IMG/VR virus record: IMGVR_UViG_3300036790_000752
Location: 1 to 25,346 of that record
Strand: one strand, 5' to 3'
Length of the DNA: 25,346 bases
From: a virus
Of the stretch, positions 2,612-22,211 are shown piece after piece. The stretch's first letter is position 1; each line of letters begins with the position of its first letter. The notes under the pieces were generated by a model. The model saw only the letters and a program-made list of their open reading frames with translations. It was not told the origin of the DNA and did not search any database. Position numbers and translations under genes: made by a program.

Positions 2612-3241
2612 ATGAAAAATAAAATCCTTGGGGCAGCCACGCGTGGCCTTGTCCTTTCCGTTTGTCTCCTCGGTTCCCTCAGCGTCCTCCTGTGCGCTTC
2701 CGCCCAGGCCCAGGGCAACCTGCTCCAGCCCGAAGAAACTTCCACCAACCTTAACGTCGCCCCGGAAGTAAACTTCTTCCAATCCGCCCTCGGCTATTTT
2801 ACGAGCGCCAACACAAACTACACCTGGTCCGGCAATTCCCTCGAAGTCGCCGCCGGTGCCGATTATATGTCCAGCGTCGATTGGGCGAATTATGTCTCGG
2901 CCCAATATGACTTCGATAGTTTTAGTACCCAGCCGTTTCTGGCTCGCCTGGCGTTCGAGGGCAAAATCCGCAACGCCGGCATCGCCGGCACGGTCGTCTC
3001 GCTGGAAGCGGGACCGGAGCTGACCTTGATTAGTTATTACAGCGTCAAGTTGGAAGTGGGTGTTGAAGGCGGCTACGACCTCAACCGCAACTCGCCGATC
3101 ATCGAACCCAAAGTAACCCTGCGCGATAAACTCACGCAAAATACCTTTCTGGGCCTCTCCTTGTCGCTCCCGCTCTGGACGGCAGGCAAACCCGTGAACA
3201 CGGTGCCGGATGTGGGCATCGAGACGGGGTTCACTTATTGA
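2612..3241 (+). CDS. Outer-membrane beta-barrel-like protein
   Basis: The 209-residue protein has a clear signal peptide: Lys-Asn-Lys, a hydrophobic core, and a cleavage site near ASAQAQ (about residues 29-34). The mature part is made of short alternating polar/aromatic strands with turns, and ends in an aromatic residue (GFTY), as barrel proteins recognised by BamA usually do. It is therefore predicted to sit in the outer membrane. It stands alone after a gene-free stretch and before a lipase, outside the packed structural operon, so it looks like a cargo (moron) gene expressed in the lysogen. It could alter surface receptors or block superinfection. The family could not be named. Confidence 0.65.
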   Translation: MKNKILGAATRGLVLSVCLLGSLSVLLCASAQAQGNLLQPEETSTNLNVAPEVNFFQSALGYFTSANTNYTWSGNSLEVAAGADYMSSVDWANYVSAQYDFDSFSTQPFLARLAFEGKIRNAGIAGTVVSLEAGPELTLISYYSVKLEVGVEGGYDLNRNSPIIEPKVTLRDKLTQNTFLGLSLSLPLWTAGKPVNTVPDVGIETGFTY

Positions 3242-3292: not shown

Positions 3293-4084
3293 GTGCTGCC
3301 GATAGCTTCCACCAACCTGCGGTTTAACTGGCCGAACGCTCGCGCCCTGGCCGAAGCGAGCTTCCGCGCCTATGTCGGCCCGGATGGGTTTCCGAGCGAT
3401 CAATCCGTTTGGATTCAGGATGCCGGCACCGACGCGCATGCCCTGATCGAGGACCGTGGCAATTGCGTCGTCATCGCTTTTCGTGGATCGGAAGTCACCG
3501 AAGATTATCTCCAGGACGCCAAGTTTGAATTTACCGAGCTGGTATGGTCGCGCGGGGAAGCGCCGGTAAAAGTTCATCGCGGTTTCCTGGAAGACTTCGA
3601 AGCGCTCAACGTACAACTGGTCGTCGCCCTCAAAACCATTTTTGCCAAACGCGGGCCGCAACCCCTTTTCCTCACCGGCCATTCCCTCGGCGCGGCCATC
3701 GCCACTTTGTGCGCCCTGGAATTCGCGCGGCAGAAATTTGCCATCTACGGCGTTTACACTTTCGGCGGTCCCCGCGTGGGCAACGCCGCCTTCGCGGAAA
3801 TCTATGCGGACAACCCCGCGCTCCTGGGCAAATACACTTTCCGTGTGGTGAATGAGAACGACCTCGTCCCGCGCATGCCGCCGTGGATCAACGGCTATCG
3901 CCATGTGGGCCAAAACATTTTTCTGCCGGACACGCGTGTCCCTTCATGGATTTTAAATCCGTCCCGGCTGACGATAGCGCTTTCCGACGCCCTCGGCCTC
4001 TGGGGAGCGGTTCGCGACCTCCATGATGTATTGATCGAGGACCATTTTATCGCCGCCTACCAGCAACGCATCCAGCTCCTATGA
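3293..4084 (+). CDS. Class 3 lipase-like alpha/beta hydrolase
   Basis: Predicted esterase/lipase of the fungal lipase-like class 3 family (PF01764). The nucleophile elbow is GHSLG with Ser131. The other triad members are likely Asp190 (NENDLVPRMP) and His251 (EDHFIAAY). FRGS at 63-66 is the usual oxyanion-side motif, and FGGPRVGN at 157-164 is typical of the family. The 263 residues cover the whole domain. There is no signal peptide. The GTG at 3293 is the most upstream start and suits the family N-terminus, but no Shine-Dalgarno is visible. The stop overlaps the next ATG (ATGA). In this setting it could act on host membrane lipids during lysis or be a cargo gene for the lysogen; substrate unknown. 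Confidence 0.85.
   Translation: MLPIASTNLRFNWPNARALAEASFRAYVGPDGFPSDQSVWIQDAGTDAHALIEDRGNCVVIAFRGSEVTEDYLQDAKFEFTELVWSRGEAPVKVHRGFLEDFEALNVQLVVALKTIFAKRGPQPLFLTGHSLGAAIATLCALEFARQKFAIYGVYTFGGPRVGNAAFAEIYADNPALLGKYTFRVVNENDLVPRMPPWINGYRHVGQNIFLPDTRVPSWILNPSRLTIALSDALGLWGAVRDLHDVLIEDHFIAAYQQRIQLL
3928..3941. repeat. 14-bp perfect palindrome, copy 1
   Basis: GGACACGCGTGTCC lies inside the lipase gene, encoding Asp-Thr-Arg-Val. The identical palindrome plus one following C occurs again at 24996-25010. Confidence 0.8.
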
Positions 4085-4220
4085 TAGATCCAACTAACGC
4101 CGTTGAAAATATCCAGGCCGCGAATACAATCGCGCGTGTGCGGGAGCCAGGGCCGGCGCGGAATGGCTCCTGTCCCATGGCGGCCTCCTCAAACTCCTCG
4201 GCAAACTTTTTTGGAACTAA
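4081..4220 (+). pseudogene. Small frame-disrupted ORF ahead of the membrane protein gene
   Basis: From the ATG at 4081 the first frame reads MIDPTNAVENIQAANTIARV, then becomes unlikely protein (PGPARNGSCPMA). In the -1 frame the codons from about 4140 to a TAA at 4218-4220 read GAEWLLSHGGLLKLLGKLFWN, ending in an amphipathic helix. That frame has no start codon of its own. The pattern suggests a coding sequence of about 46 residues broken by a single indel or joined by a -1 shift. No classic slippery heptamer is visible, so an indel (real or in the assembly) is more likely. The next gene starts two bases after the TAA. Confidence 0.45.
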
Positions 4221-4221
4221 C

Positions 4222-4611
4222 ATGATCATACTCGCCCAGGCCACCATGGACGTTCCATGGAACTCCTTCACTCACTGGCTCGAAGGCCTCGTCGGCTTTC
4301 TGTCCGTCATGCTCCTGGTCATCCTCGTCATTTATTACGGCCGGAAAACCTTTGGTCGCCGCCCGCCCATTGACGACGACCTGAAAAAGCTGCGCTCGGA
4401 AATCTATCACGCGAAAAATTCCGTGCGCAAAGAAGTCGTCGCCCTCATTGCCACCGAGAGCAAACGCATCGCCAAGCTGGAGGAACGCTATGAGGAAATG
4501 CAGGTGGACCGCGCGCGCAAATGGGAGGAATTGAAAGGCCAGGTCCATGACATGGAAACCACTCTCGCTTTTATTCGTGGAAAACTTGAACAGGAGGACA
4601 AACTGCCATGA
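4222..4611 (+). CDS. Membrane protein with coiled coil (Mu gp25/DUF2730-like)
   Basis: The 129-residue product has one strong transmembrane helix (residues about 22-42, ending IYYGRK). A long charged helix of heptad character follows from about 52 to 120. This architecture and the position two genes before the small terminase resemble the DUF2730 protein (gp25) of Mu-like phages. The frame is open back to 4081, but the start at 4222 is preferred. GGAA sits seven bases upstream, and the extra 47 residues look like translated sequence of a different small ORF. The stop overlaps the ATG of the next gene. Role in Mu-like phages is not established. Confidence 0.6.
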   Translation: MIILAQATMDVPWNSFTHWLEGLVGFLSVMLLVILVIYYGRKTFGRRPPIDDDLKKLRSEIYHAKNSVRKEVVALIATESKRIAKLEERYEEMQVDRARKWEELKGQVHDMETTLAFIRGKLEQEDKLP

Positions 4612-10506: not shown

Positions 10507-12114
10507 ATGAAAAAATCCGCACACAATCAATTCAAAGCCCGGCAACGGGTCCTGGGCTGGCTTGGCTTCGCCATGCTGGCGCTGATCGCCGTCTGTCTCG
10601 CGCTTCCCACCCTCGGCCTGTCGCTCGTCGCGCTCGTCGCTCCCAAAGCGTTTCTCGCCGTGGGCGCTGCCGCGCATAAAGGCGTCTGTTCTGCCGCCCT
10701 GGGCATGTTTGGCACGCATCGCATCCTGCGTGATCACAAATCACAGGAGGGCGGTGACATCGAAACCATTGATACCGAATCCGGTGATTTCGAAAAAACC
10801 ATGCGGGGCGGATTGAAGTCGCTTTTTGAAAACCAAAAACGCTTCAAGTCCCAACTCCAGGAGGTGACGACCAACCTGGGTAATTCCGATAAGGAAGTTA
10901 AAAAAGCGCTGGAGGAACTGACGCTGGTCAAAAATAAATCCAACTCCACGTTTGAGGAGGTCATGCAAAAGATGGAGAAGGTCCAAAAGCAGATCGCTTT
11001 GAACACCCGCTCCAGCTTCCGTAATCCCATCGAACGCGCCCTGTCCAATGAAGAATTCTGCTTCGCCCTCAACGCCACCGCCCGGCACATCCTTTCGAAA
11101 GATAAACGGTGTCCCGATTTCAAAATGGACCCTGCTTTCAGCAGGTTCATCGAAGAAAAATGCCAGATCGAACAACGTGCCTTGACCGGTGTCGATGCCG
11201 GCCTCGGCCAGGCGACTGTGCCAGTGGAAACCTTCAATGAGATTTATGATCTCCTCCTGGAGTACGGTGACTGGTCCACCCTCGGCGTCCAGCGCGTCGG
11301 TGCCCGCACCACGGTCTATCCGCTCATGACCAGCCGGCCCCAGTTCTACTGGATCGGCAATCAATCATCTCTGGCGGAAGGTTCGCAGATCACGGCCGGC
11401 GCGTTCGGCGGCGGCGAGGTCCTGCTCATCATCCAGACGCTGGCCGTGCTCATGTATGTGTCCCGCGAACTGTTGGCCGATTCCACGGTGAACCTCGCGC
11501 CCACCGTCATCCGCCATATGATCCAGTCCGTGGGCCAGGGCGCGGATACCGCCGCCTTCATCGGCACCGGCAACCTGGACACCACCAACGCCGGCTACGT
11601 CGGCATCTTCAACGCCGCTTTGGCCAACTCCAACCTCGCCAGCATCGCCGCCCTCAGCCATACCTCCATCGGCGCGACGACGCTCGAAGACTGGGAACAA
11701 ACCGTTCTCACCGTGAGCGCGGAAGTGCTTAATCGCAATCCGCAATGGTGGATGCACGCGCAGCTCATGGCCAAGGCCGCCCTCGTGCGGGATAAAGTGG
11801 GCCGCCCGCTCTTCCAAACGTTCACGGAAGCGCCCGGCAAATCCATCGGCAGCATCCTCGGCTATCCGGTGCATCCCACCGCCATCGCCCCGAACACGGA
11901 TGGCCCCAACCAGCAGATCGCGACCTTCGGCGATCCCGAAGGCCAGGTCGTCGGCATCCGCCAGGACCTGGAACTCGCCACCAGCATGGACATCGGGTTC
12001 CCGCAAAACCTCGTCGCTTACCGCGCCCTCTTGCGCGCCGGCACCAAGATGCTCACCCAGCCGGGCAGCACCGTCCTCAAACCCTTCGCGGTCCTCACCC
12101 TGCCGCCCCAATAA
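10507..12114 (+). CDS. HK97-fold major capsid protein with hydrophobic N-terminal module
   Basis: Main shell protein. Residues about 85-165 form a charged coiled coil like the HK97 delta (scaffold) domain. The rest, from about 200 onward, is the capsid fold: VPVETFNEIYDLLLEYGDW, then YWIGNQSSLAEGSQITAGAFGG, and AYRALLRAGTKMLTQPG near the end. Oddity: residues about 15-66 are strongly hydrophobic (LGFAMLALIAVCLALPTLGL, continuing LVALVAPKAFLAVGA), enough for one or two membrane helices. This is not part of ordinary HK97 capsid proteins. An AGGAGGG occurs at 10744-10750, just where the coiled coil begins, but no normal start codon follows in frame. The ATG at 10507 lies two bases after the protease stop. 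Protease cleavage after the delta domain would remove the hydrophobic part. Confidence 0.88.
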   Translation: MKKSAHNQFKARQRVLGWLGFAMLALIAVCLALPTLGLSLVALVAPKAFLAVGAAAHKGVCSAALGMFGTHRILRDHKSQEGGDIETIDTESGDFEKTMRGGLKSLFENQKRFKSQLQEVTTNLGNSDKEVKKALEELTLVKNKSNSTFEEVMQKMEKVQKQIALNTRSSFRNPIERALSNEEFCFALNATARHILSKDKRCPDFKMDPAFSRFIEEKCQIEQRALTGVDAGLGQATVPVETFNEIYDLLLEYGDWSTLGVQRVGARTTVYPLMTSRPQFYWIGNQSSLAEGSQITAGAFGGGEVLLIIQTLAVLMYVSRELLADSTVNLAPTVIRHMIQSVGQGADTAAFIGTGNLDTTNAGYVGIFNAALANSNLASIAALSHTSIGATTLEDWEQTVLTVSAEVLNRNPQWWMHAQLMAKAALVRDKVGRPLFQTFTEAPGKSIGSILGYPVHPTAIAPNTDGPNQQIATFGDPEGQVVGIRQDLELATSMDIGFPQNLVAYRALLRAGTKMLTQPGSTVLKPFAVLTLPPQ

Positions 12115-12164: not shown

Positions 12165-13232
12165 ATGAAAACGATCACTGAAATCAAAAGCATGAATTTG
12201 CTCGACCTGCAGAAGCTGGTCCTCGATCTGCGGGCCAATGTGCCGCAGAGCGACAAATATTACGCCGTCGCGTTGCAGCTCATCAACACCGCCACCGGCA
12301 TGCGAGACTGGAAAGAACCCCAGACCATCGAGGTCCGCAATGTCGCCGGCCACGATGTCACCATTGATAAGACCACCATCGCCAAAGACGGCACGGGCAA
12401 AGTCTATCCCTGGCAATATCTCGCCGCGCCGCGCTTCCTGGAAGCGATCAACCGGGAGGATCATGACGCTGCCGTGGCCACGCATGTCCGCAAACCGGGC
12501 AAGGGCGAGGATGACAAGCCGCTCTCGCGCGCGGATATCATCAATATCGTCAAGGCCAACTCCATCACGGAGGAAGGGCTGGGCCGCGCCATTGCCGGGG
12601 CCTTGAAAGCCGCCGGCATCGTCAAAGCCGCCGCCGCGCTGATTGCCTTTATGTTTCTGCTCTTTGGCAGCAGCTCTGCCATGGCCCAGACGACCACCTA
12701 TGCCGTGGGCAGCTCCCCCAGCTCCTACCACTCCTATTACGTCGCCAACCTCAACGGCACGATTGGGGGTCCCGCCCTGGGCGGCACCAACTCCCTCACC
12801 GGAACGAACTATTTCAACCTTCCGGTCTTTTCCACCAACACCATTATAGCGCCAAATAATATTTGGTCCAATGGCATCATCATCACCGTCCTCACCACCA
12901 ACAACGCCGTCACCACCAACTGGCCCAACGTGGTCTCCCTGGTGAATTACGATCTGTGGGACGCGCAATTCAGTTATGGGCTGCTGGGGGCGGGCACCGG
13001 CACCAACGCCTATTGCGGCTGGTCCTATTCCTCGGACGACATCACTTGGCAGACGAATGCCCTCATCCTGACACTCGGTTGCAACGGCACCGCCACCGTC
13101 GTCACCAATGCCATCATCTCCCAGTTCGCCGAAGGCTGGGCGCGCCTGGATTGGATCGGCTGCGTCGTCACCATCACGAATCCCATCGTGCAAGTGCCTT
13201 TGAAACCCATCAAAGGCGCCGGGCCGGGCTGA
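12165..13232 (+). CDS. Head-region protein with internal signal-like segment and Thr/Asn-rich exported-type domain
   Basis: A 355-residue protein in two very different halves. Residues 1-153 are soluble-looking and mixed alpha/beta, with no signal at the N-terminus. Residues about 154-174 (AAAALIAFMFLLFGSSSAMA) form a hydrophobic core followed by a textbook signal peptidase I site, Ala-Met-Ala before Gln175. Residues 175-355 are Thr/Asn/Gly/Ser-rich beta sequence typical of secreted Verrucomicrobiota proteins. I recognise neither half by family. Placed directly after the capsid gene, where decoration proteins or head fibres are common. The reading frame is continuous, so the join is not an annotation artefact. 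Upstream leader AACTTTTTTACCAA (12143-12156) resembles the one before 16064. Confidence 0.75.
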   Translation: MKTITEIKSMNLLDLQKLVLDLRANVPQSDKYYAVALQLINTATGMRDWKEPQTIEVRNVAGHDVTIDKTTIAKDGTGKVYPWQYLAAPRFLEAINREDHDAAVATHVRKPGKGEDDKPLSRADIINIVKANSITEEGLGRAIAGALKAAGIVKAAAALIAFMFLLFGSSSAMAQTTTYAVGSSPSSYHSYYVANLNGTIGGPALGGTNSLTGTNYFNLPVFSTNTIIAPNNIWSNGIIITVLTTNNAVTTNWPNVVSLVNYDLWDAQFSYGLLGAGTGTNAYCGWSYSSDDITWQTNALILTLGCNGTATVVTNAIISQFAEGWARLDWIGCVVTITNPIVQVPLKPIKGAGPG

Positions 13233-13268
13233 TTCGTTTCCCGATAAAATCCTTAAATCATCACGACG

Positions 13269-13469
13269 ATGCTCAATCAGCCGCCACAGGACCGCCGGAT
13301 CAAGCCGGGTGAAGCCATCACCCGGGTTGCCCCTTCATCCGGCGCCGGTGGCGGCGCACCTAAATCCCACGGGGTCCCCAGCTCGGCTGAAATCCTCCAT
13401 GGCCCCAAGCGCATCCTTCCGCCGCGAATCGTCGTGGACACTTCGGAGAAACGCGGCGAACACGACTGA
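13269..13469 (+). CDS. Small Pro/Gly-rich hypothetical protein
   Basis: A 66-residue, likely disordered protein (IKPGEAITRVAPSSGAGGGA) ending in a charged tail. No recognised family and only a weak ribosome site. The codon pattern is reasonable, and the following ATG at 13470 directly abuts its stop, which favours a real, coupled gene. It might be a head-associated peptide by position. Confidence 0.45.
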   Translation: MLNQPPQDRRIKPGEAITRVAPSSGAGGGAPKSHGVPSSAEILHGPKRILPPRIVVDTSEKRGEHD

Positions 13470-13553
13470 ATGAAAAATTCCCAATCCTCCAACTCTTGCG
13501 CTTGCGACGCGCCGGCTGAGGCGCGTCTTCGCCAGCGGAGGCTCTCCGCATGA
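13470..13553 (+). CDS. Tiny 27-codon leader ORF over the two-hairpin repeat
   Basis: The ATG at 13470 directly follows the stop at 13467-13469, and the stop at 13551-13553 overlaps the connector ATG as ATGA. The last two thirds are encoded by the two-hairpin repeat, giving CACDAPAEARLRQRRLSA. A ribosome reading this ORF would pass through and unfold the hairpin that holds the connector's Shine-Dalgarno. That suggests a translational-coupling leader more than a functional peptide. Confidence 0.45.
   Translation: MKNSQSSNSCACDAPAEARLRQRRLSA
13500..13552 (+). repeat. Two-hairpin repeat element, copy A
   Basis: Hairpin 1 is ACGCGCC (13507-13513), loop GGCTGA, GGCGCGT (13520-13526). Hairpin 2 is GCGGAG (13535-13540), loop GCT, CTCCGC (13544-13549). 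Both stems are perfect. Copy B at 15346 has the same plan with paired base changes in each stem. Hairpin 2 contains GGAGG (13537-13541) and ends one base before the connector start codon, so it can hide that ribosome site. Confidence 0.75.
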
Positions 13554-14221
13554 ACACTGGTTTTTCCAATCTGACTTTGTTGAAGGCGCAATTACTGGCG
13601 CCCAATCTACTCGCGCGCACGGACTGGGACGCCAAGATCAGCGCCATCGGCTTGGGCGTCGTTGGCTCGTTTGAAAAATATTGCAACCGCGATTTCGCCT
13701 GGACTGTGGGCGCCCAGGACATCGACCAGGGCGACCGTGACCATTGGTATGCCCGGCGCGCTCCCGTCGCCCAATTCACGAAAGTGGAGCTCCGCTATTT
13801 CCGTTCCGATGCCTGGACGGACATTTCCGGTCAGCCCCTCGCCAGCGACGAAAAAAAAGGATTGATCCATTTCGGCTACACCCTCGGCACGCGCCCCATC
13901 CAATTTCGTGTAACATATGATGGCGGCTTTTGGTGGCCGATTTTAGATCCTGGCGAGCCGGGTTATCCCGATGTGGCCCCGGCGGAAATCGCCGCCAATG
14001 CGGCCGGCCTCAACCCGAATGTTTTTCTCCTGCCCGCCTCGCTCCTGTTCGCCTGGCAGATGCAGGTCCGCAAAGTGTGGGAAGCCATGGATAAATTAGG
14101 CACGCAGATCGTGCACACCGGCAGCAACGCGCATAATCCCGCCGACGTGCTGGCCGGCCTGGACCTGGTGCCGGAAGTCGAGCGCATCCTTCGCCAATAC
14201 GTCCGTTACCAACTCACCTGA
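13550..14221 (+). CDS. Head-tail connector (HK97 gp6-like)
   Basis: A 223-residue protein predicted to form the ring under the portal. It begins with a helical segment (LLKAQLLAPNLLARTDWDAKI) and has a central beta part around WYARRAPVAQFTKVELRYF. Its C-terminal helices include LLFAWQMQVRKVWE, the hallmark of this adaptor group. It has the expected place between capsid and gp10-like genes. GGAGG lies eight bases upstream of the ATG, but inside a perfect hairpin of the repeat element. Confidence 0.72.
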   Translation: MNTGFSNLTLLKAQLLAPNLLARTDWDAKISAIGLGVVGSFEKYCNRDFAWTVGAQDIDQGDRDHWYARRAPVAQFTKVELRYFRSDAWTDISGQPLASDEKKGLIHFGYTLGTRPIQFRVTYDGGFWWPILDPGEPGYPDVAPAEIAANAAGLNPNVFLLPASLLFAWQMQVRKVWEAMDKLGTQIVHTGSNAHNPADVLAGLDLVPEVERILRQYVRYQLT

Positions 14222-14222
14222 T

Positions 14223-14849
14223 ATGCCTGCCTTAGCTTCCTTTCAAGTAACGGCCACGGGCAGCCTGATGCAACGGCTGCCGGAAGTGGCGGATGGCGCC
14301 CGGCTCGTGAACAGCCTCGCGCGGGTGATGGCCTTTCAAAATAAATTGACCGTCTCGCACATCCAGAAAGAATATATGTCCTTCCCCAAGGACCAGCCGC
14401 CCACGATGGAGGGCCTGCGGGTGCAATCCAATCGGCTGCGGAACAGCCTGCGCGATAGCAAACCCGAGATCAGCGGCGCGAAGATCAATTCCGGGATCGG
14501 TTCGAATGTCATCTACGCCCGCATCCAGGAGATCGGCGGCCAGACGAAGGCCCATATCATCCGGGCCAAGAACGGCAAAGCCCTGGCCTTTAATCCCGGC
14601 ACCGGCCAGTTCTTTACCAAAATGGATTTTGCGCGGGAGCTGGCCGGCACGCGCGGAAAAGTGCGGAAAGCGGCGGCGGCGAATTTTATCGATGAGTCCG
14701 GGATCATTTTTCTCAAGGTCGTGCATCATCCGGGCAGCAATATGCCGGCGCGGCAATATGTGCAGCGGGGCGTGGAAGACCGCATGGGCGCTTATACCGC
14801 CGCGTTTGACCAGGTCATCCAGGCGGCGCTGGCGGGAGGAAAATCATGA
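14223..14849 (+). CDS. HK97 gp10-like head-tail/tail completion protein
   Basis: A 208-residue protein of the gp10-like/virion-morphogenesis type. The middle has NVIYARIQEIGGQTKAHII near residues 94-112, and the end has HHPGSNMPARQYVQRGVEDR, a common ending of this family in which a Pro-Ala/Arg motif precedes a final helix. These proteins join head and tail. It starts one base after the connector stop, and its own stop overlaps the next ATG. Assignment by motif and gene order. Confidence 0.7.
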   Translation: MPALASFQVTATGSLMQRLPEVADGARLVNSLARVMAFQNKLTVSHIQKEYMSFPKDQPPTMEGLRVQSNRLRNSLRDSKPEISGAKINSGIGSNVIYARIQEIGGQTKAHIIRAKNGKALAFNPGTGQFFTKMDFARELAGTRGKVRKAAAANFIDESGIIFLKVVHHPGSNMPARQYVQRGVEDRMGAYTAAFDQVIQAALAGGKS

Positions 14850-15313
14850 CGCCGTTCTCCACTTTAAGCCAGGGCATCCAACAGGCTTTGAGCGCGCTCG
14901 ATGTGGCGGCGGGAGTCTCCCTTGTGCAGGACGATGCCCAGGACCTCGTGACCGAAGTCACGAAAGCGTATGACCAGACCGGGATGATGATCCTGTTGGG
15001 CACTCCGGAATTTAAAAACGAAGACAAACTCGCGGACGTGGTCAACGCCATCATCAGCGTGGAGATTCTCGTGCGCGAGGTGCCCACGCTCTGGCGCAAT
15101 AACGGCACCGCCAACACCATTCATTGCGCCGACCTCGGCCAGGCCATCGCCCCCGCGTTGCAGGGATTATACATTCCCGGTTTCGAAAAACTGCGCGTGC
15201 TCACGGGCGAATCCCTGGGCAAAGCCCTGGGCGAACGGGAAGGCCAGGAACCGTTGATTTTCCAGGATTATTTATTAGTCATCCAAACCATGCAAATTTT
15301 CAGCCCCGAATAA
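14846..15313 (+). CDS. Probable tail terminator protein
   Basis: A 155-residue mixed alpha/beta protein with no strong motif that I recognise. Size and position fit the tail terminator (lambda gpU-like), which caps the tail tube: after the gp10-like protein and before the tail-tube gene. The ATG overlaps the upstream stop (ATGA), and the stop overlaps the tiny ORF at 15313 (TAATG). The call rests on order. Confidence 0.55.
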   Translation: MTPFSTLSQGIQQALSALDVAAGVSLVQDDAQDLVTEVTKAYDQTGMMILLGTPEFKNEDKLADVVNAIISVEILVREVPTLWRNNGTANTIHCADLGQAIAPALQGLYIPGFEKLRVLTGESLGKALGEREGQEPLIFQDYLLVIQTMQIFSPE

Positions 15314-15426
15314 TGAATACGAATTTTCAGGCAGTTATGGACCACGCTTGCGGCGCGCCGGCAGAGGCGCGCATTAAGCCTGCGGTGGCTCACCGCCTGC
15401 GAAAAACACAACCAAAAACCAAATAA
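15313..15426 (+). CDS. Tiny 37-codon ORF over the second two-hairpin repeat
   Basis: The ATG overlaps the stop of the tail-terminator gene (TAATG). The stop is 15 bases before the tail-tube ATG. The part encoded by the repeat reads ACGAPAEARI, in the same phase as ACDAPAEARL in the 27-codon ORF at 13470. It may be a translated leader that couples terminator and tube expression, or merely an open frame created by the repeat. Confidence 0.35.
   Translation: MNTNFQAVMDHACGAPAEARIKPAVAHRLRKTQPKTK
15346..15399 (+). repeat. Two-hairpin repeat element, copy B
   Basis: Hairpin 1 is GCGCGCC (15353-15359), loop GGCAGA, GGCGCGC (15366-15372). Hairpin 2 is GCGGTG (15382-15387), loop GCT, CACCGC (15391-15396). 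Compared with copy A the stems differ at one pair each, and both partners change together. The flanking GCTTGCG, the GCC before hairpin 2 and the TG after it are shared. Confidence 0.75.
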
Positions 15427-15441
15427 GAGAAAGAAACTAAA

Positions 15442-15981
15442 ATGATCATCGAATCCTCAAAGGCCCTCGGCGCCGCGATTCTCTTTTTCCCGGAGGGGAA
15501 CGCGGTGCAGGCAGGGGGCGTGTGCAGCAGCGCCGCCATCCCCAACCCGAACGACATGGGATGGATCAACACCCAACGGACTGAAAAATGGTCCGCTTCA
15601 CGGAAAAATGCCAAATATGAACCCGTGGAAGACGGCTCCACAGGCCGAACGGAACTCGTCGATGAAATCGAAACCGGTGGCTATACCGAATACGAGTTCA
15701 CCACCAATGTGATCCTGCAATTCCTCCTGGGCCTTTTCTATCGCGCCCTCACTGCGCTCAACTCGAATAGCCTGACCTTTAACCCCGATGCCGGCTCGAG
15801 CTATCGCGGCTGGATGATCCTGGTCCATAAAGACGCCGCCGGAAACCTCATCATCGCGGCCAACCTTTGGGGCCGTTTGAAGCTGGACAAATTGGAAGGC
15901 GGCGGCGGCGCTTTGACCAAGCCCGCGCTGGTTTTTACCCAATATAAAAACAACCTGAACGTCATCACGCTCGGCAGCTAA
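15442..15981 (+). CDS. Probable major tail tube protein
   Basis: A 179-residue, beta-rich protein with the segment pattern of siphophage tube proteins: a loop with WSASRKNAKYEPVEDGSTGR, then long strands (EYEFTTNVILQFLLGLFY; YRGWMILVHKDAAGNLIIAA). It would polymerise into the tail tube around the tape measure. The position between terminator and chaperone/tape-measure genes supports this. AGAGAAAGAAA lies upstream as a weak ribosome site. Confidence 0.62.
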   Translation: MIIESSKALGAAILFFPEGNAVQAGGVCSSAAIPNPNDMGWINTQRTEKWSASRKNAKYEPVEDGSTGRTELVDEIETGGYTEYEFTTNVILQFLLGLFYRALTALNSNSLTFNPDAGSSYRGWMILVHKDAAGNLIIAANLWGRLKLDKLEGGGGALTKPALVFTQYKNNLNVITLGS

Positions 15982-16063
15982 TTTAAAATCCTCCTCATCC
16001 TCGTTCTCCTCCTCATCATCGAGGAAGAGAGCGGGGCTGGGAAAAACCTTTTACCAATATTTT

Positions 16064-18592
16064 ATGAGCGATACCAAACCTCCTGTTGCGGTTTTCCCGG
16101 ACGTCATGCCGAAGGATGTTCCGCTGGAACAACAAAAGACTCACGCGCAAATCCCCGATGCCTTTCGCAGCAATTCAAGCGATGCGCGCCTGGTGAAATC
16201 GACCGAAGTCAAAATCCCCGATGTGATGCCGAAGGATGTCCCCCTGGATCAGCAAAAGAAAAATATCGCTGCACCCACGCCCTTGAAAACCGCGCTCCTG
16301 GCATTCTTCTGCGTTCTGTGTTCTTTGTTCAGCGTTTCCACTCACGCGACCACGCTTACTTTCACCATCACCAATGACACCGCCTATACTACGGCAGTGG
16401 GCATGTACGTTTCCAACGGCGTCCAGAATTTTACGTTCTATGCCTCCACCAATATCTCGCCGGGCGTGAGCAATGTGATCTCCTACACCAACGCTACGGG
16501 CGTCTATACCACGACCACGAACAGCGCAAGCTGGCTCGCCGGCATCGGCTATCTCACGCCGTTTTATCTGCTCTCGAATACCAATGGCGGCAATCTATCG
16601 CTGGTCAGTTCGAATTATTATGCGCGCGCGGGGATCGGGGCGCTCGCACCCACGGCTTCCGCGCCGGCCAGCACGCCCAGCATCCCGCCGGTGCTCTATC
16701 TCCTGGGCGACTGGGTGCCCGTCATCGCCACGAATGCCGTCCCCAATACGAATCAGCTTTTTGCCAATGGCGCGGGCACCACTCGCGATAATAGCGAATA
16801 TGTTTTGCAGGGACCGGCTTTCGTGAACGGCCAAATTTTTACCAATCTCGTGGTGAGCGGCGGACATCCCGCCAGTTATATTTGCTCTCAATTCGGCGGC
16901 ACTGCCGGGCCTAACTACGATCAATACCCATTCTGGATGGGGCCTACCACCAACAACATCTCCCCCTTCAGCACGAATACCACCCAGGTATTGCAATACG
17001 ATTATTTTTCCATGATCAGCCTGACCGCCTATTGGAATAACCAAAGCGCCGCCCTGGGATCAGCCGGGGCCGGAGCCAGCCCAATGCCTGCCGTCACGTT
17101 CGGCACTAATTATGTCACTTCGACGAACCTGGTGTTTGAATGCCCCCTCTACTTTGGCACGCAATATACCAATGGCATCATTTATGTCAGTACTTCGGGA
17201 AATGACCTTCTGGCTTCCAACATGGTTTGCCCGTTCGCGAGCTGCCAGGCGGCCAAAAATTTTGCCACCGCCGGAAAAACCGTGGAGGTTCTCCCCGGCT
17301 GGTATGAGGACCATAACATCGCCAAGAATGGCGTGAATTGGTGGTTTCTGGATGGCGCTACCATCGCCTGGGATGATCCCCAGACGGACCTTAACCCGCG
17401 CTCCATCATTGACGACTATGCCGGTCCCATCGTTTGCAACGTTCATGGCGACCGCATCCATTATACCGAAGTCGCTCCCGCAAACTGGCCGGCCATGCTC
17501 ATTACCAATCCCACCTCCCGTGTGAATATTAAATTCAACAACGCCGATTTCGCTGCCTATAGCGCCTCCGTGGATACCACGTATCTCCCCGGCACGCCCG
17601 GTTATGCGACGCCCACCTCCACCGGCCTCTTTCAGGATTGTCTTCTCCTCGTGGCCAATTGTGCCTACGTCAGTTGCGATGTTGATGCCGTCAACGGCTG
17701 GACCAATGCGGTGCGCACTTACTTGAATGCGAACGATCAAAGCATGGGATCGCCGTCTGCTTTTGGCACCTATGTAGCCGTAACCAATAGCGATGGTGGT
17801 TTTGTTTGGGGCCAGGGTGAAACTCATATCAAGGTAAGGTCACTCATTTGCACGAATAACGGGGCGGGCGGACTCCCGCCTTACGCCTTTGAATCCGGCA
17901 ACGTTGGCACCGCCGAATCTCACGTGTTCTTCAGCGCGGATTACGTCAATGGCTTCGCCTATTGGGATGATAGCAACACCAACGCGCGCACCTGGATGAA
18001 CGTCACCTTCTTCCAGGGAATTCCTGGCAATGCTGCCCTCCGGTATTATGGCAGCGCCATCAATTATTATCAGGGCATGAAGGTCAGCGCCACCGGTGCG
18101 CCCTGTTTCGACCTCGGCACCACGACTTCCTTTTCCCAATCTCTCTGGGTCACGGTCCAGAAGCTCACGCAAAACGGGAACGGGAGTTGGATCAATGGCA
18201 TTGCCGCCGCCATGCATACCTGGTGGAACGTCCAATATTTTGAGGACAATTCCGGCGGCACGATGGTCACGCCCGGCATAAATATTGCGGGGGGCACGAA
18301 TGATTTCTTCGGCGGCCAGGCGATGGCGTTGAACACCAGCCCGATCAGGATCGGCGGCGGCCAGACCACGATGCAGGCCATGACCTTGCAGACGGCCGGA
18401 ACCAACGCGGATGTGATGCTGCTGGGCACCAATAACCTCACCATGGCCGGAAACATCCTCCACAGCACGGCCATGTCGTTTTCCGCGACGAGCAATTCCT
18501 GGGTGAGCGGCGGCTTCTTCGCGGATGTCGCCCCTACGAATATCGTGCACCTTAAAGGCACCAACTACATGCAGGGAACGTTATCGCAATAA
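16064..18592 (+). CDS. Beta-helix spike-like protein with internal signal-like segment
   Basis: An 842-residue protein. Residues 1-74 are soluble and contain a duplicated 14-residue motif, PDVMPKDVPL(E/D)QQK, at 12-25 and 52-65. Residues about 75-95 are a hydrophobic signal-like segment (TALLAFFCVLCSLFSVSTHA), with a signal peptidase I-type site after Ala95. The remainder is Thr/Asn/Gly-rich beta sequence. From about 370 it has the opening of a right-handed beta-helix (IIYVSTSGND...PFASCQAAKNFATAGKTVEV), as in pectate-lyase-fold tailspikes and adhesins. It would bind or degrade surface glycans, either on the virion or at the cell surface. The insertion between tube and chaperone genes is unusual for a spike. 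No catalytic residues could be assigned. Confidence 0.72.
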   Translation: MSDTKPPVAVFPDVMPKDVPLEQQKTHAQIPDAFRSNSSDARLVKSTEVKIPDVMPKDVPLDQQKKNIAAPTPLKTALLAFFCVLCSLFSVSTHATTLTFTITNDTAYTTAVGMYVSNGVQNFTFYASTNISPGVSNVISYTNATGVYTTTTNSASWLAGIGYLTPFYLLSNTNGGNLSLVSSNYYARAGIGALAPTASAPASTPSIPPVLYLLGDWVPVIATNAVPNTNQLFANGAGTTRDNSEYVLQGPAFVNGQIFTNLVVSGGHPASYICSQFGGTAGPNYDQYPFWMGPTTNNISPFSTNTTQVLQYDYFSMISLTAYWNNQSAALGSAGAGASPMPAVTFGTNYVTSTNLVFECPLYFGTQYTNGIIYVSTSGNDLLASNMVCPFASCQAAKNFATAGKTVEVLPGWYEDHNIAKNGVNWWFLDGATIAWDDPQTDLNPRSIIDDYAGPIVCNVHGDRIHYTEVAPANWPAMLITNPTSRVNIKFNNADFAAYSASVDTTYLPGTPGYATPTSTGLFQDCLLLVANCAYVSCDVDAVNGWTNAVRTYLNANDQSMGSPSAFGTYVAVTNSDGGFVWGQGETHIKVRSLICTNNGAGGLPPYAFESGNVGTAESHVFFSADYVNGFAYWDDSNTNARTWMNVTFFQGIPGNAALRYYGSAINYYQGMKVSATGAPCFDLGTTTSFSQSLWVTVQKLTQNGNGSWINGIAAAMHTWWNVQYFEDNSGGTMVTPGINIAGGTNDFFGGQAMALNTSPIRIGGGQTTMQAMTLQTAGTNADVMLLGTNNLTMAGNILHSTAMSFSATSNSWVSGGFFADVAPTNIVHLKGTNYMQGTLSQ

Positions 18593-18623
18593 ACCCGAAA
18601 GGGAGAACCTCAACTAAAAATAT

Positions 18624-19049
18624 ATGACCATCTTTAACCCGGACGCCGAAGTCACTTTGTCTAACGGCGATAAAATCACCGTCAAACTCCTGAACTGGAA
18701 AAAGGCCCTGGAGTTTTTCGGCAAACTTAAAACGCAGTTTGAACAATTCATCAGTCCGGCCGGTGAATTGAAATTCGACCAGTCCAAAATCATGGCCGCC
18801 GTCATGGACAGTGCCGAAATGATGGAATGGCTCGTCATGCAAACGACCGGAAAAATCGACCAGGCATGGTTGGAAACGCTGGACCTCGGCGACATGGTGA
18901 AGCTGACTACCAAAGCCATCGAGATCAATCTCGGCACCATCGCGGCAGAAATAAAAAACGTCAGGGGCCGGCTGGCGGCGGCAGCCAATACCGGCATAGA
19001 AGTGACGCCGAAATCGAATGCGACCTCGCCGGACTCTGCGAAGCCATGA
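18624..19049 (+). CDS. Tail assembly chaperone, short form (lambda gpG-like)
   Basis: The 141-residue unshifted product has a beta-rich start (TLSNGDKITVKLLNWKKALEF) and helical middle, and ends about 30 codons after the slippery site. In lambda-like phages this protein coats the tape measure before tail polymerisation and is not in the virion. It directly precedes the tape-measure gene. The sequence is not similar to lambda gpG that I can see; the call comes from position and the frameshift arrangement. Confidence 0.75.
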   Translation: MTIFNPDAEVTLSNGDKITVKLLNWKKALEFFGKLKTQFEQFISPAGELKFDQSKIMAAVMDSAEMMEWLVMQTTGKIDQAWLETLDLGDMVKLTTKAIEINLGTIAAEIKNVRGRLAAAANTGIEVTPKSNATSPDSAKP

Positions 19050-19165
19050 TCAGCGAAGGCTGGACGTGGGCGGATTTGCAATCGCTCACGTTCCCCCAGC
19101 TCAACCTGTTTGCCGATAAAATGAATGAACGCCTGGAAGCCATCGCCAAAGCCAACCGCAGCTAA
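18624..19165 (+). CDS. Tail assembly chaperone, -1 frameshift form (gpGT-like)
   Basis: A slip of -1 at A AAA AAC (18953-18959) joins 112 codons of the short form to 68 codons of the overlapping frame, giving a 180-residue product that stops at 19163-19165. The added tail reads EIECDLAGLCEAMISEGWTW, then LTFPQLNLFADKMNERLEAI. It is well-formed helical protein, unlike a random frame, and has no good start of its own. In lambda the T part recruits the tube protein to the tape measure. Confidence 0.82.
18953..18986 (+). promoter_or_regulatory. Programmed -1 frameshift site and downstream hairpin
   Basis: The heptamer AAAAAAC is in the correct phase (codons AAA and AAC in the zero frame, AAA and AAA after slipping). 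GGCTG (18970-18974) can pair with CAGCC (18982-18986) ten bases further on, optionally extended by CCGG on both sides. This is the standard slippery-site plus structure arrangement. Confidence 0.8.
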
Positions 19166-19169
19166 AATT

Positions 19170-19192
19170 CCCTCTCCCCCTCGGGGAGAGGG
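19170..19192. repeat. CCCTCTCCCC hairpin of a dispersed repeat type
   Basis: A perfect 10-bp stem, CCCTCTCCCC with GGGGAGAGGG, closes a three-base loop; GCAGGGTGAGGGGGC follows. This hairpin plus tail is a familiar intergenic repeat in several bacterial phyla. Here it fills the gap between the chaperone and the tape-measure gene. No T-run follows, so it is not a typical terminator. Confidence 0.75.
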
Positions 19193-19221
19193 CAGGGTGA
19201 GGGGGCGGTCGTAGATTCCCT

Positions 19222-21690
19222 ATGAGTGATGCCATCACAACGTTACTGGTGCAGATCAAGGGCGATGCCACCGGCGTTGTGGCCGCGTTCAAGGATTTGG
19301 CCACCGGCGCCACCACGGCCACCACGCAAGTCACTGTCCAGACGAAGAAGCTGAATCAAGCGCTGGCCGATACGGGCAAAAACGCGGAGGAGGCCACGGG
19401 CCACATTAGAGGTCTGACCTATGGCGTGCGCTCGCTCTTCGACCAAATCCGGTTTGGCATCGGCGCCGGCGGTGAGATGGCCGGGTTCTACGCCATTGAT
19501 GAAGGCATCCGCGCCCTGCTGGCCAACGGCATGAAATTCGGCCAGCTCGCCTCGATCTTCACCGTGGTAGGCGTCGCGGCCTCGGGCGTGGCCGTCATTT
19601 GGGAGAACCTCACGCAAAAGCAGCGCGAGCTAAAACAGCAGACGGAAGAGTTGCGCCTGGCGCTGGAGCGCATGCCGGACACGCTGGACCAAATCCAGGC
19701 CTCGGCGCAGGCGGGAATTTTTGGCCAGGGCGGCGCCGATGCCCTGGCGAAATTATTGACCGGCCAGACCAGTTACAAGGTGACCATCCCCACGGGCCAG
19801 GCGGAGCGCACGGGCCGGATCACCCAGGCGCAGGCGGATGCGGCTGACAATGCGGACATGAAAGCGGGCATGAAAGACCCGGTCGATTGGGATGATTCCA
19901 TGCTCATGTCCCTGTTCATCGGGCAGCGCGATTCAACGGTCACCGTGGAAGCCAACCTCGAGGAGCGCGCGCAAATGGTAAACGCGCAGTTGGTCAAAAT
20001 GGGCGTCCTCATCGAGAAGCTCAATGACAAAGACAAAGGCACCGGCGAGTTTGAGCTGACGCCATTGGGCAAAGGCCTCGTGGAAGAACAGCGGCTCCAA
20101 AAGGAGCTGGAAGCCGATAAATTGAGCGGCGTGGACCGCGAGCGCGCCGCCGCGAAACAAAAGTATGACGAAGAACTGGCGCGCATCAAGGAACTCGAAC
20201 AACTTTCCAAAGGCAATTTCCCCGGCGGCCAGACGGATGCCCAGCGGCAATTGGGATCGGGCATCTCCCGGATGCGGGCCAACGCCCTGGCCGGTTACCA
20301 GAACACCCTGGCCCAGCTCAACCAAAAGCCCACGACCGAGCAAAAGGATTTGAACGATGAGCTGGCCAAGGGCATGGAGGTTTATAAGCAATGGAACGAA
20401 TTTCTTTCCGGCGTCAATAAGCAGATCGGCGAAATGTCCGCGCGCGCCTATGAAGCGGACGAGCGCAAGCGGGAACAGCTCGAACGCGAGGCGCAACTGA
20501 AACGTGACATCGCCCGCACGGATATCGAGTCGGCCATGCAGGCCATCCAGGATAACAAGCTGATGCCCGAACGGCAAAAGCTGCCCTTGCTGGCGGCCTA
20601 TCGCCAGCAGCTCATGGCCGTGAACCAGGCCGAGATTTCCGATCTGGAAAACCTCAAAAAACAAGCCGTGACCCTGGCTGACCAATTGGCGCTGGAACAA
20701 AAGATTCACGATCTGAAATCGCAAAATCAAAAACTCTCCGATCAGCCCACCGGGCAACAGCAGGGTTCTTTTTCCACTCAATTCGGGCAGGCCTTCGCCG
20801 GCCAAACCAATAAATGGACCGGCTGGGCGAAAGAATCTGCGAATGCGTTTTCAAGTGCCTGGACCGGATCGACGGATGCCGTGGCCGGTGGCTTCACCCG
20901 GCTCTTCGAATACGGCGCGCAAAAGGGCGAATGGTTCCGGCAGATGTGGAACGGCGTCATCGGCTCCATGATCTCCAGCGCCACCAAACTGGCCGTGGAA
21001 TACGTCGCCAACTATTTGATCATGGGCAACGCCGCCACCGAGAGCCAGGAAGCCCAGACGGCCTCAGCGGCGGAGGGAACCTCCCAACGCGGCGCGCTCA
21101 ACCTGGCGGAAACGGTTTTTCACGGGGCCATGGTCGCCTTGCGCGTGGCCGCGCACATCGCCGGGGAAGTCGCTTCCACGGCTGCCACCGCCGCGCAGGC
21201 CGTCATCCGCGCCATGTACCATGCCATCGTCGCCGCCATCGCCGCCATGGAAAGCGAAGCCAGCATTCCGCTGGTGGGCGTGGTCCTGGGCATCGCCGCC
21301 GGCGCGGCCATTCTCGCGGCGGCTTATGGTCTCATGGGCGGGTTCGCCCAGGGAGGTTACACGGGAGACGGACATCCCTCGCAAATCGCCGGCGTCGTCC
21401 ATGCCGGCGAGTATGTCATCCCGGCCAATCGTGTGGGGGCGTCCATGGGTTTGCTCCGCGCCATCCATACCGGCTCGCTTTCCGATTTCGCCGCCCCACA
21501 TCTGCGGGGTCCCGTAGGGCAGGCGTCCGCGCCTGCCGGTGCCGGGGGCGTCTCGCCCTCCACCCAGCACGTCACCCATATCGCCGTCTATCACGATAAG
21601 GAAAAAATGCGGCAGGATTTGGAGCAGTCAGACGCGCACGAAAAATGGGTGGCTGATGTCCAGGGGAAGAACGCCTATAAATACCAATGA
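19222..21690 (+). CDS. Tape measure protein
   Basis: An 822-residue protein that sets tail length and probably helps DNA cross the host envelope. It has long helical stretches throughout and Gln/Glu/Ala-rich coiled coil from about residues 280 to 520. There is a hydrophobic region near 90-135, and Ala-rich segments with several possible membrane helices at about 590-715 (AAIAAMESEASIPLVGVVLG), then a Gly-rich C-terminal part. Position right after the frameshifted chaperone is diagnostic. Near the end, codons for GPVGQASAPAG carry a repeat-type hairpin (21518-21537). The stop overlaps the next ATG. No strong ribosome site is visible. Confidence 0.9.
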   Translation: MSDAITTLLVQIKGDATGVVAAFKDLATGATTATTQVTVQTKKLNQALADTGKNAEEATGHIRGLTYGVRSLFDQIRFGIGAGGEMAGFYAIDEGIRALLANGMKFGQLASIFTVVGVAASGVAVIWENLTQKQRELKQQTEELRLALERMPDTLDQIQASAQAGIFGQGGADALAKLLTGQTSYKVTIPTGQAERTGRITQAQADAADNADMKAGMKDPVDWDDSMLMSLFIGQRDSTVTVEANLEERAQMVNAQLVKMGVLIEKLNDKDKGTGEFELTPLGKGLVEEQRLQKELEADKLSGVDRERAAAKQKYDEELARIKELEQLSKGNFPGGQTDAQRQLGSGISRMRANALAGYQNTLAQLNQKPTTEQKDLNDELAKGMEVYKQWNEFLSGVNKQIGEMSARAYEADERKREQLEREAQLKRDIARTDIESAMQAIQDNKLMPERQKLPLLAAYRQQLMAVNQAEISDLENLKKQAVTLADQLALEQKIHDLKSQNQKLSDQPTGQQQGSFSTQFGQAFAGQTNKWTGWAKESANAFSSAWTGSTDAVAGGFTRLFEYGAQKGEWFRQMWNGVIGSMISSATKLAVEYVANYLIMGNAATESQEAQTASAAEGTSQRGALNLAETVFHGAMVALRVAAHIAGEVASTAATAAQAVIRAMYHAIVAAIAAMESEASIPLVGVVLGIAAGAAILAAAYGLMGGFAQGGYTGDGHPSQIAGVVHAGEYVIPANRVGASMGLLRAIHTGSLSDFAAPHLRGPVGQASAPAGAGGVSPSTQHVTHIAVYHDKEKMRQDLEQSDAHEKWVADVQGKNAYKYQ
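21518..21537. repeat. GGCAGGCG/CGCCTGCC hairpin inside tape-measure gene
   Basis: A perfect 8-bp stem with loop TCCG, preceded by GTAG. It is translated in frame as Val-Gly-Gln-Ala-Ser-Ala-Pro-Ala-Gly. This hairpin type is, to my recollection, a common dispersed intergenic repeat in Verrucomicrobiota. Here it seems to have been absorbed into a low-complexity part of the protein. Confidence 0.65.
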
Positions 21691-22211
21691 GCCGGCGCTA
21701 CGACATCAATCGCGACCGCGCCGTTTACCGTCGCCTTTCCAAATCACGCGCGCGCCAGGAAGGAATTTTCCATCTCCTCTGCCAGCGGCAGCATGAACAT
21801 CGGCAAACCGAGTTACAGGGCCTCATCGCCGAGAATAGGATCATGGCCGCGCTCCTGTTCCGCCTTGGCGCTGCCATGCTGGTCCTGTTCGCGCTTCCAT
21901 TGTTTGCCCAGCCACCGGCACCGCCATTGCCACCAGGTTTCAATACGAATGCACCGGCGGTGCAGTCGTCCACCAATGTCATTGTCGCCGCGCCGGTCGT
22001 TTCCCATTTAACGATCCGCTGGACCGGTTCAATTAGCCCGAATGTTGTGCGTTATAACGTCTATCGTCGCAACGCCCTGCTCTCCACGAATTGGGAATGG
22101 TATGGCGCCTCCACGATTAATGCCTTTCTCGTGGATGATACCAACGGCGATTTTGGTTTTTATTACGTCACAGCAGTGAGCAGTAACGGTATCGAAAGCA
22201 AACTCCCATGA
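21687..22211 (+). CDS. Protein with internal signal-like segment and fibronectin-III-like domain
   Basis: A 174-residue product. Residues 1-52 are highly charged, soluble helix (RRYDINRDRAVYRRLSKSRA). Residues 53-74 (MAALLFRLGAAMLVLFALPLFA) are a hydrophobic segment with a signal peptidase I-type end before Gln75. A Pro-rich linker follows, then a fibronectin type III-like domain from about 104 to 172 (NVVRYNVYRRNALLSTNW, later YYVTAVSSNGIES). The ATG at 21843 (Met53) would make an ordinary secreted protein of 122 residues and is the main alternative start. The ATG at 21687 overlaps the tape-measure stop. An FN3 domain suggests binding of carbohydrate or envelope surface. Confidence 0.68.
   Translation: MSRRYDINRDRAVYRRLSKSRARQEGIFHLLCQRQHEHRQTELQGLIAENRIMAALLFRLGAAMLVLFALPLFAQPPAPPLPPGFNTNAPAVQSSTNVIVAAPVVSHLTIRWTGSISPNVVRYNVYRRNALLSTNWEWYGASTINAFLVDDTNGDFGFYYVTAVSSNGIESKLP

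Follow-up and report, generated by a model that had tools for sequence, protein, structure and literature searches.

We found that the gene directly downstream of the major capsid gene in a tailed phage encodes a protein, here called P1, in which a segment resembling a signal peptide lies between a head-module domain and a beta-sandwich domain. Judged from its sequence and from structure models, this segment is most likely a real, selected export signal, and export of the domain behind it is predicted. The reading that we favour, with a probability of about 0.55, is that P1 is a membrane-spanning precursor, predicted to be exported and cut by signal peptidase I, which would provide a jelly-roll on the envelope side late in infection. 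The products of tailed-phage structural operons are taken to be assembled in the cytoplasm. Here, a gene beside the capsid gene, in many phages with several capsid families within one bacterial order, apparently has an export-competent product, and one large group has the signal inside the protein, after a head-module domain. P1 predicts a membrane-side or extracellular step in the production or release of particles. Annotation by operon position alone would label such proteins as decoration or fibre proteins.

The window analysed here is the 25.3-kb IMG/VR virus record IMGVR_UViG_3300036790_000752 (positions 1-25,346). Pfam and PHROG matches together with the gene order identified it as a tailed-phage late operon. 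It carries genes for the terminase (5656), a portal/MuF fusion (6942), a protease (9794) and the major capsid protein (10507..12111, + strand; Pfam Phage_capsid 4.2e-24, PHROG 4e-30), to which P1 (12165-13232, + strand) adjoins. Head-tail genes lie between P1 and 15442, and are followed by a probable tail tube gene (15442), P2 (16064..18589, + strand) and a chaperone-like gene (18624); the tail tube and chaperone-like genes are named by position alone. The tape measure gene (19222), P3 (open reading frame from 21687, probable true gene 21843..22208, + strand) and a gene for a BR0599-type tail protein (22399) complete the series. Upstream of the terminase, an ordinary secreted protein with a signal ending in SAQA before Q (2612-3241) and a single-pass membrane protein (4081-4611) are encoded. 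Similar single-pass membrane proteins precede the terminase in several relatives. Capsid-protein relatives (49-71% identity, best segment) come from 29 virus loci and from three metagenome-assembled Verrucomicrobia genomes, and several relatives are located within bacterial genome assemblies. By their titles, two of the three genomes belong to subdivision 3 and one to the Verrucomicrobiia. The hosts of the phage group are Verrucomicrobia subdivision 3.

The initial annotation had described hydrophobic stretches ending in AMA before Q, THA before T and LFA before Q in P1, P2 and P3, and all three are present where it had placed them, in continuous frames. It had further assigned one plan to the three proteins, consisting of a cytoplasmic part, an internal signal and an exported domain. 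This plan holds fully for P1 and probably for P2, but probably not for P3, where the first 52 residues are not coding-like. The count of three internal signals has to be lowered, since P3 is best read as having an ordinary N-terminal signal and the internal position in P2 is seen in one contig only.

P1 begins with a domain of about 95 residues (12165..12449, + strand), a head-module domain without a known family that is supported by the alignment, by AlphaFold and by a stand-alone gene in locus L056. It is followed by a linker (12450..12617, + strand) of low to middling pLDDT, which is missing in many relatives in the alignment, and by the internal signal segment IVKAAAALIAFMFLLFGSSSAMA (12618..12686, + strand), with a predicted cut between 12686 and 12687. 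The remainder (12687..13229, + strand) is a predicted exported beta-sandwich domain of jelly-roll-like shape, as indicated by the model, by fold searches and by stand-alone secreted homologues in L038 and L059-L062. Codon usage gave 0.65 bits per codon for the N-part and 0.54 for the C-part in the same frame, while the other + frames were negative.

The same plan of N-domain, linker, hydrophobic stretch, small-x-Ala before Gln and beta domain runs uninterrupted through 20 further homologues, some of them incomplete at contig ends, with linkers of 0 to about 60 residues. The N-domain is conserved in the 20 fused homologues and in L005. Of the related loci long enough to show it, nearly all have P1 behind the capsid gene. 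Within the host order, 10 of 293 genomes had whole or partial homologues, and a sample of 388 genomes of the phylum yielded only the genome already known. Among the 21 sequences with a cut site, position -1 is Ala in all, -3 is Ala in 16 and +1 is Gln in 16, while -2 is free. The hydrophobic core is uncharged and usually preceded by Lys, so that the pattern of a Sec signal with a signal peptidase I site (positive n-region, uncharged core, small residues at -3 and -1) is found in fused P1 (n=21). The protein of L021 has no Lys or Arg right before the core, and its site reads ASA before TTT. An N-terminal placement of the signal, as in the stand-alone homologues, is not seen in fused P1, where 110-175 residues precede the cut.

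In other loci the two halves occur apart. L038 carries the C-domain alone, as an ordinary secreted protein (MKKLLLSAFCAFSAVIPAYS followed by QLYD) that starts 102 bases after the capsid gene. Stand-alone C-domain homologues with normal signal peptides also follow capsid-region genes in the prophage regions L058-L062, which come from other genomes of the host order; the two neighbouring capsid families that were tested, phrog_247 (L059) and phrog_283/328 (L060), differ from that of the window. A profile built from fused C-domains only recovered L038, L059, L060, L061 and L062 with E-values between 7e-15 and 2e-5 (database size of one million). L056 encodes the N-domain by itself, as a gene of 97 residues two genes upstream of a protease-capsid fusion, and the fusion in L057 is shorter, containing just the beta half of the N-domain. 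Since the halves are separable in L038, L056 and L058-L062, the signal travels with the C-domain and the N-domain with the head module. Separate halves in relatives had initially been named as evidence against an internal signal. They do exist in some phages, but they argue for export, since each separate C-half has a normal signal peptide of its own.

In the AlphaFold model of P1, a monomer, the N-domain has a pLDDT of about 90-95, the C-domain is a beta sandwich, and the hydrophobic helix lies outside both folded domains at a pLDDT of about 50-60. The secondary structure of the N-domain was unchanged when it was modelled alone. The conserved join with its invariant Ala, the lack of a conserved internal start codon, the separability of the halves and the position of the segment outside the folded domains are the reasons why we regard the signal as most likely real and under selection. 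The suggestion that it is just a hydrophobic linker is disfavoured for P1, with Ala invariant at -1 and mostly present at -3, and with a beta domain that is plainly secreted elsewhere.

Family searches placed P1 outside described groups. Pfam, PHROGs and NCBIfam had no family for P1, P2 or P3, no sequence relative of P1 in the PDB was significant, P1, P2 and two relatives' proteins had no match among phage records, and a profile of the P1 N-domain found only loci already in the set when run against IMG/VR. From its map position, the N-domain is suspected to be lambda gpFI-like. For its second half, comparison with the DUF7210 or YqbF-like small phage domain gave Foldseek rows with E above 0.02, a row for 2hjq at Z 5.1 over 47 residues, and a Pfam DUF7210 match in one member at E 0.24. 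The best fold row of the C-domain was 6i56 (XepA/YomS; Z 8.4, rmsd 2.8, 102 residues, 7% identity), followed by 6i5o of the same pair at Z 7.3, while many unrelated jelly-rolls also reached Z 7-8. The fold is as similar to jelly-rolls of the phage tail and capsid type as to secreted ones.

Following the favoured reading, P1 would be made as a single bitopic precursor. The N-domain, which belongs to the head module, would remain cytoplasmic. The internal segment would enter the Sec/SRP route and insert with its N-side in and its C-side out, and the C-terminal jelly-roll would be moved across the inner membrane. Cleavage by signal peptidase I after the conserved A-x-A would then release the jelly-roll into the periplasm or to the outside, and the N-domain would remain attached to a membrane stub. 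Through this stub, a domain from a head gene may stay close to assembling capsids at the inner membrane. The released jelly-roll might act on the envelope late in infection, most likely in support of egress or lysis and possibly in a block of superinfection. The consistent position of P1 after the capsid gene is the reason for favouring a late envelope-side role over one in lysogeny. It is unusual for a cleavable signal to be preceded by 95-155 residues, and if cleavage fails, the segment of P1 might serve as a signal anchor.

Bitopic proteins of the ToxR/CadC type, which are signal-anchored transcription regulators, have a cytoplasmic N-domain of 100-180 residues, one membrane segment and an exported C-domain, and P1 is like them in its predicted layout. 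Unlike them, P1 has a site of the signal peptidase I type and lies in a phage head module. XepA of PBSX and YomS of SPbeta are encoded by Bacillus subtilis prophages; XepA is reported to be exported during phage development and to be absent from mature particles, is placed in a lytic cassette, and it was described without a transmembrane segment (PMC6834076). Like the P1 C-domain, XepA and YomS are prophage-encoded beta-sandwich proteins and provide its best fold-level row; the lytic cassette and the missing transmembrane segment of XepA set it apart. The fold scores are at the level of common arrangements, and homology between XepA and P1 is not established by these model-based comparisons. 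In T4, prohead initiation takes place on the inner membrane with gp20 and gp40 (PMC9958956). This resembles the role proposed for P1 in that head assembly is bound to the inner membrane, but there is no exported domain, and anchoring occurs via the portal and chaperones.

Other readings of these proteins were weighed against the favoured one. It is unlikely, but deserves consideration, that the exported parts serve moron-type functions such as superinfection exclusion or display on the lysogen surface, with the N-domain only as a carrier. The presence of several relatives inside bacterial genomes fits this, as does lambda Lom, a secreted protein encoded in a late operon. A further parallel is the HK97 moron product gp15, a superinfection exclusion protein encoded inside the tail operon, between the tail chaperone and tape-measure genes (PMC10883804). 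Together with other phage membrane exclusion proteins, gp15 is comparable to P2 as a membrane or export protein inside the tail operon and upstream of the tape measure. It differs from P1 in being a small inner-membrane protein with no head-module fusion and no place beside the capsid gene. Morons are typically variable and dispensable, present in some phages and absent in close relatives, whereas P1 does not show this distribution: it is found in nearly every related locus, immediately behind the capsid gene, and is fused to a head-module domain. Slightly less probable still is assembly of the proteins in the cytoplasm as parts of the virion, in which case the hydrophobic segment would pack inside an oligomer or act as a linker and only incidentally look like a signal. 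The place of P1 behind the capsid gene in every locus that contains both would suit a virion part, its C-domain folds like the jelly-rolls of phage tails and cement proteins, and the proteins at the P2 position are fibre-like by eye. Yet an invariant A-x-A before Q would not be required of a hydrophobic linker, the stand-alone C-domains retain a full N-terminal signal peptide, and the segment is unpacked in the AlphaFold model, albeit of a monomer.

Internal translation starts, by which an N-domain and a secreted protein would be separate products of one reading frame, are the preferred explanation for P3, where an ATG at 21843 follows a part that is not coding-like. For P1 we consider them very improbable. 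TTG-AAA does stand just before the signal in P1 and P2 of the window, and L002 has both TTG and ATG with a purine-rich sequence upstream. However, the N-parts of P1 and P2 are coding-like, no start codon before the signal is conserved across the fused P1 homologues (L006, L016 and L028 have none nearby), and Shine-Dalgarno-like matches near the signal are rare among the homologues. A start shared at the signal was therefore rejected for P1, as were a frameshift or split genes, since the reading frame runs from one half into the other without a stop in all 20 fused homologues.

P2 is probably a second fusion of the P1 kind, seen only in the window. Its N-terminal extension of 73 residues (16064..16282, + strand) has a codon score of 0.26, with all other frames below 0, and contains the motif PDVMPKDVPL[ED]QQK twice (residues 12 and 52), which was not found in other loci. 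The signal-like segment LKTALLAFFCVLCSLFSVSTHA (16283..16348, + strand), with a cut predicted before T at 16349, leads into a Thr/Asn-rich predicted exported part (16349..18589, + strand), a beta-helix as judged by eye only. Because the extension scores as coding, the join and the internal signal are probably real in this contig, a single sequence. P2 had no relatives in the related loci and only short segment matches in the 293 genomes; at the corresponding operon position, L006, L007, L008, L018, L021 and L028 encode large Thr/Asn-rich proteins with ordinary N-terminal signals.

The 52 residues ahead of the P3 signal scored -0.125 in frame, lower than two other frames. As this upstream part (scored over 21691-21842) is not coding-like in its frame, 21687 is probably not the start of the gene, as far as this one sequence can tell. 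P3 is most likely an ordinary protein with predicted secretion from an N-terminal signal peptide, MAALLFRLGAAMLVLFALPLFA (21843-21908, + strand), which starts at the ATG at 21843 and is followed by QPP. Its FN3-like part had weak matches to long open reading frames in genomes of the host order. No relatives of P3 or the tape measure were found in the related loci, save one weak tape-measure match, and IMG/VR held no tape-measure relatives.

Genuine-looking export signals in late-operon proteins, as initially proposed, are borne out beyond the window. Applied to 13 late operons of the phage group, a home-made simple rule, which flags artefacts too, marked 43 of the 188 genes called. Seven terminase read-through artefacts were left out, together with six capsid N-termini that are hydrophobic but not clearly cleavable, and 30 genes remain. 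The control, 86 annotated structural-region genes of lambda, HK97, Mu and Gordonia phage Fryberger, gave one, the outer-membrane protein Lom. With a simple rule, crude gene calling and related phages counted repeatedly, these counts are to be read as a large effect and not as a rate. In the literature, nothing specific on internal signal peptides in phage structural proteins was found. For the verrucophage P8625, which has a subdivision 4 host, no signal peptides were reported (PMC4642752), and the trait is thus not general among phages of the phylum.

Terminase open reading frames called from the first start codon carry long Arg/Gly/Ala-rich extensions with signal-like stretches in L005, L006, L007, L015, L016, L021, L024 and L037. 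These extensions look like wrong-frame readings and were disregarded; they show that signal scans based on open reading frames call for care.

In about half of the lineages, one or two N-terminal hydrophobic helices precede the coiled-coil (delta-like) region of the major capsid protein itself (10507-10700 in the window; also in L005, L007, L010, L011, L014, L016, L018, L020, L024, L028, L034, L037 and L057). The peak hydropathy over 15 residues splits cleanly, at about 2.5-3.1 against below 1.2. A role of these helices in the membrane or as a hydrophobic core during prohead assembly would be unexpected. It is conceivable, though rather improbable, that this phage lineage builds its heads against the inner membrane, with the capsid helices and the P1 stub holding the prohead, while the P1 jelly-roll is exported ahead of time and, once the cell opens, encounters virions or the envelope from the outer side. 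If true, parts of the virion or of the egress machinery would be delivered via the host secretion system.

A second family is encoded in the interval from the tail-completion genes to the tail tube region. In L006 (14583-15245), L015 (15478-16131) and L024 (15574-16251), its members carry an internal signal preceded by an N-part of 75-105 residues. A similar exported part is a separate ordinary secreted protein in L028 (16043-16495). The N-termini of this family (MKKILLIADSAAG in L015 and MKTSILLISDAAPG in L024, from 15478 and 15574) resemble those of the helix-less capsid proteins of L002, L013 and L015 (MKRILLIADAAEG), and this common N-terminus is possibly a shared assembly or protease tag.
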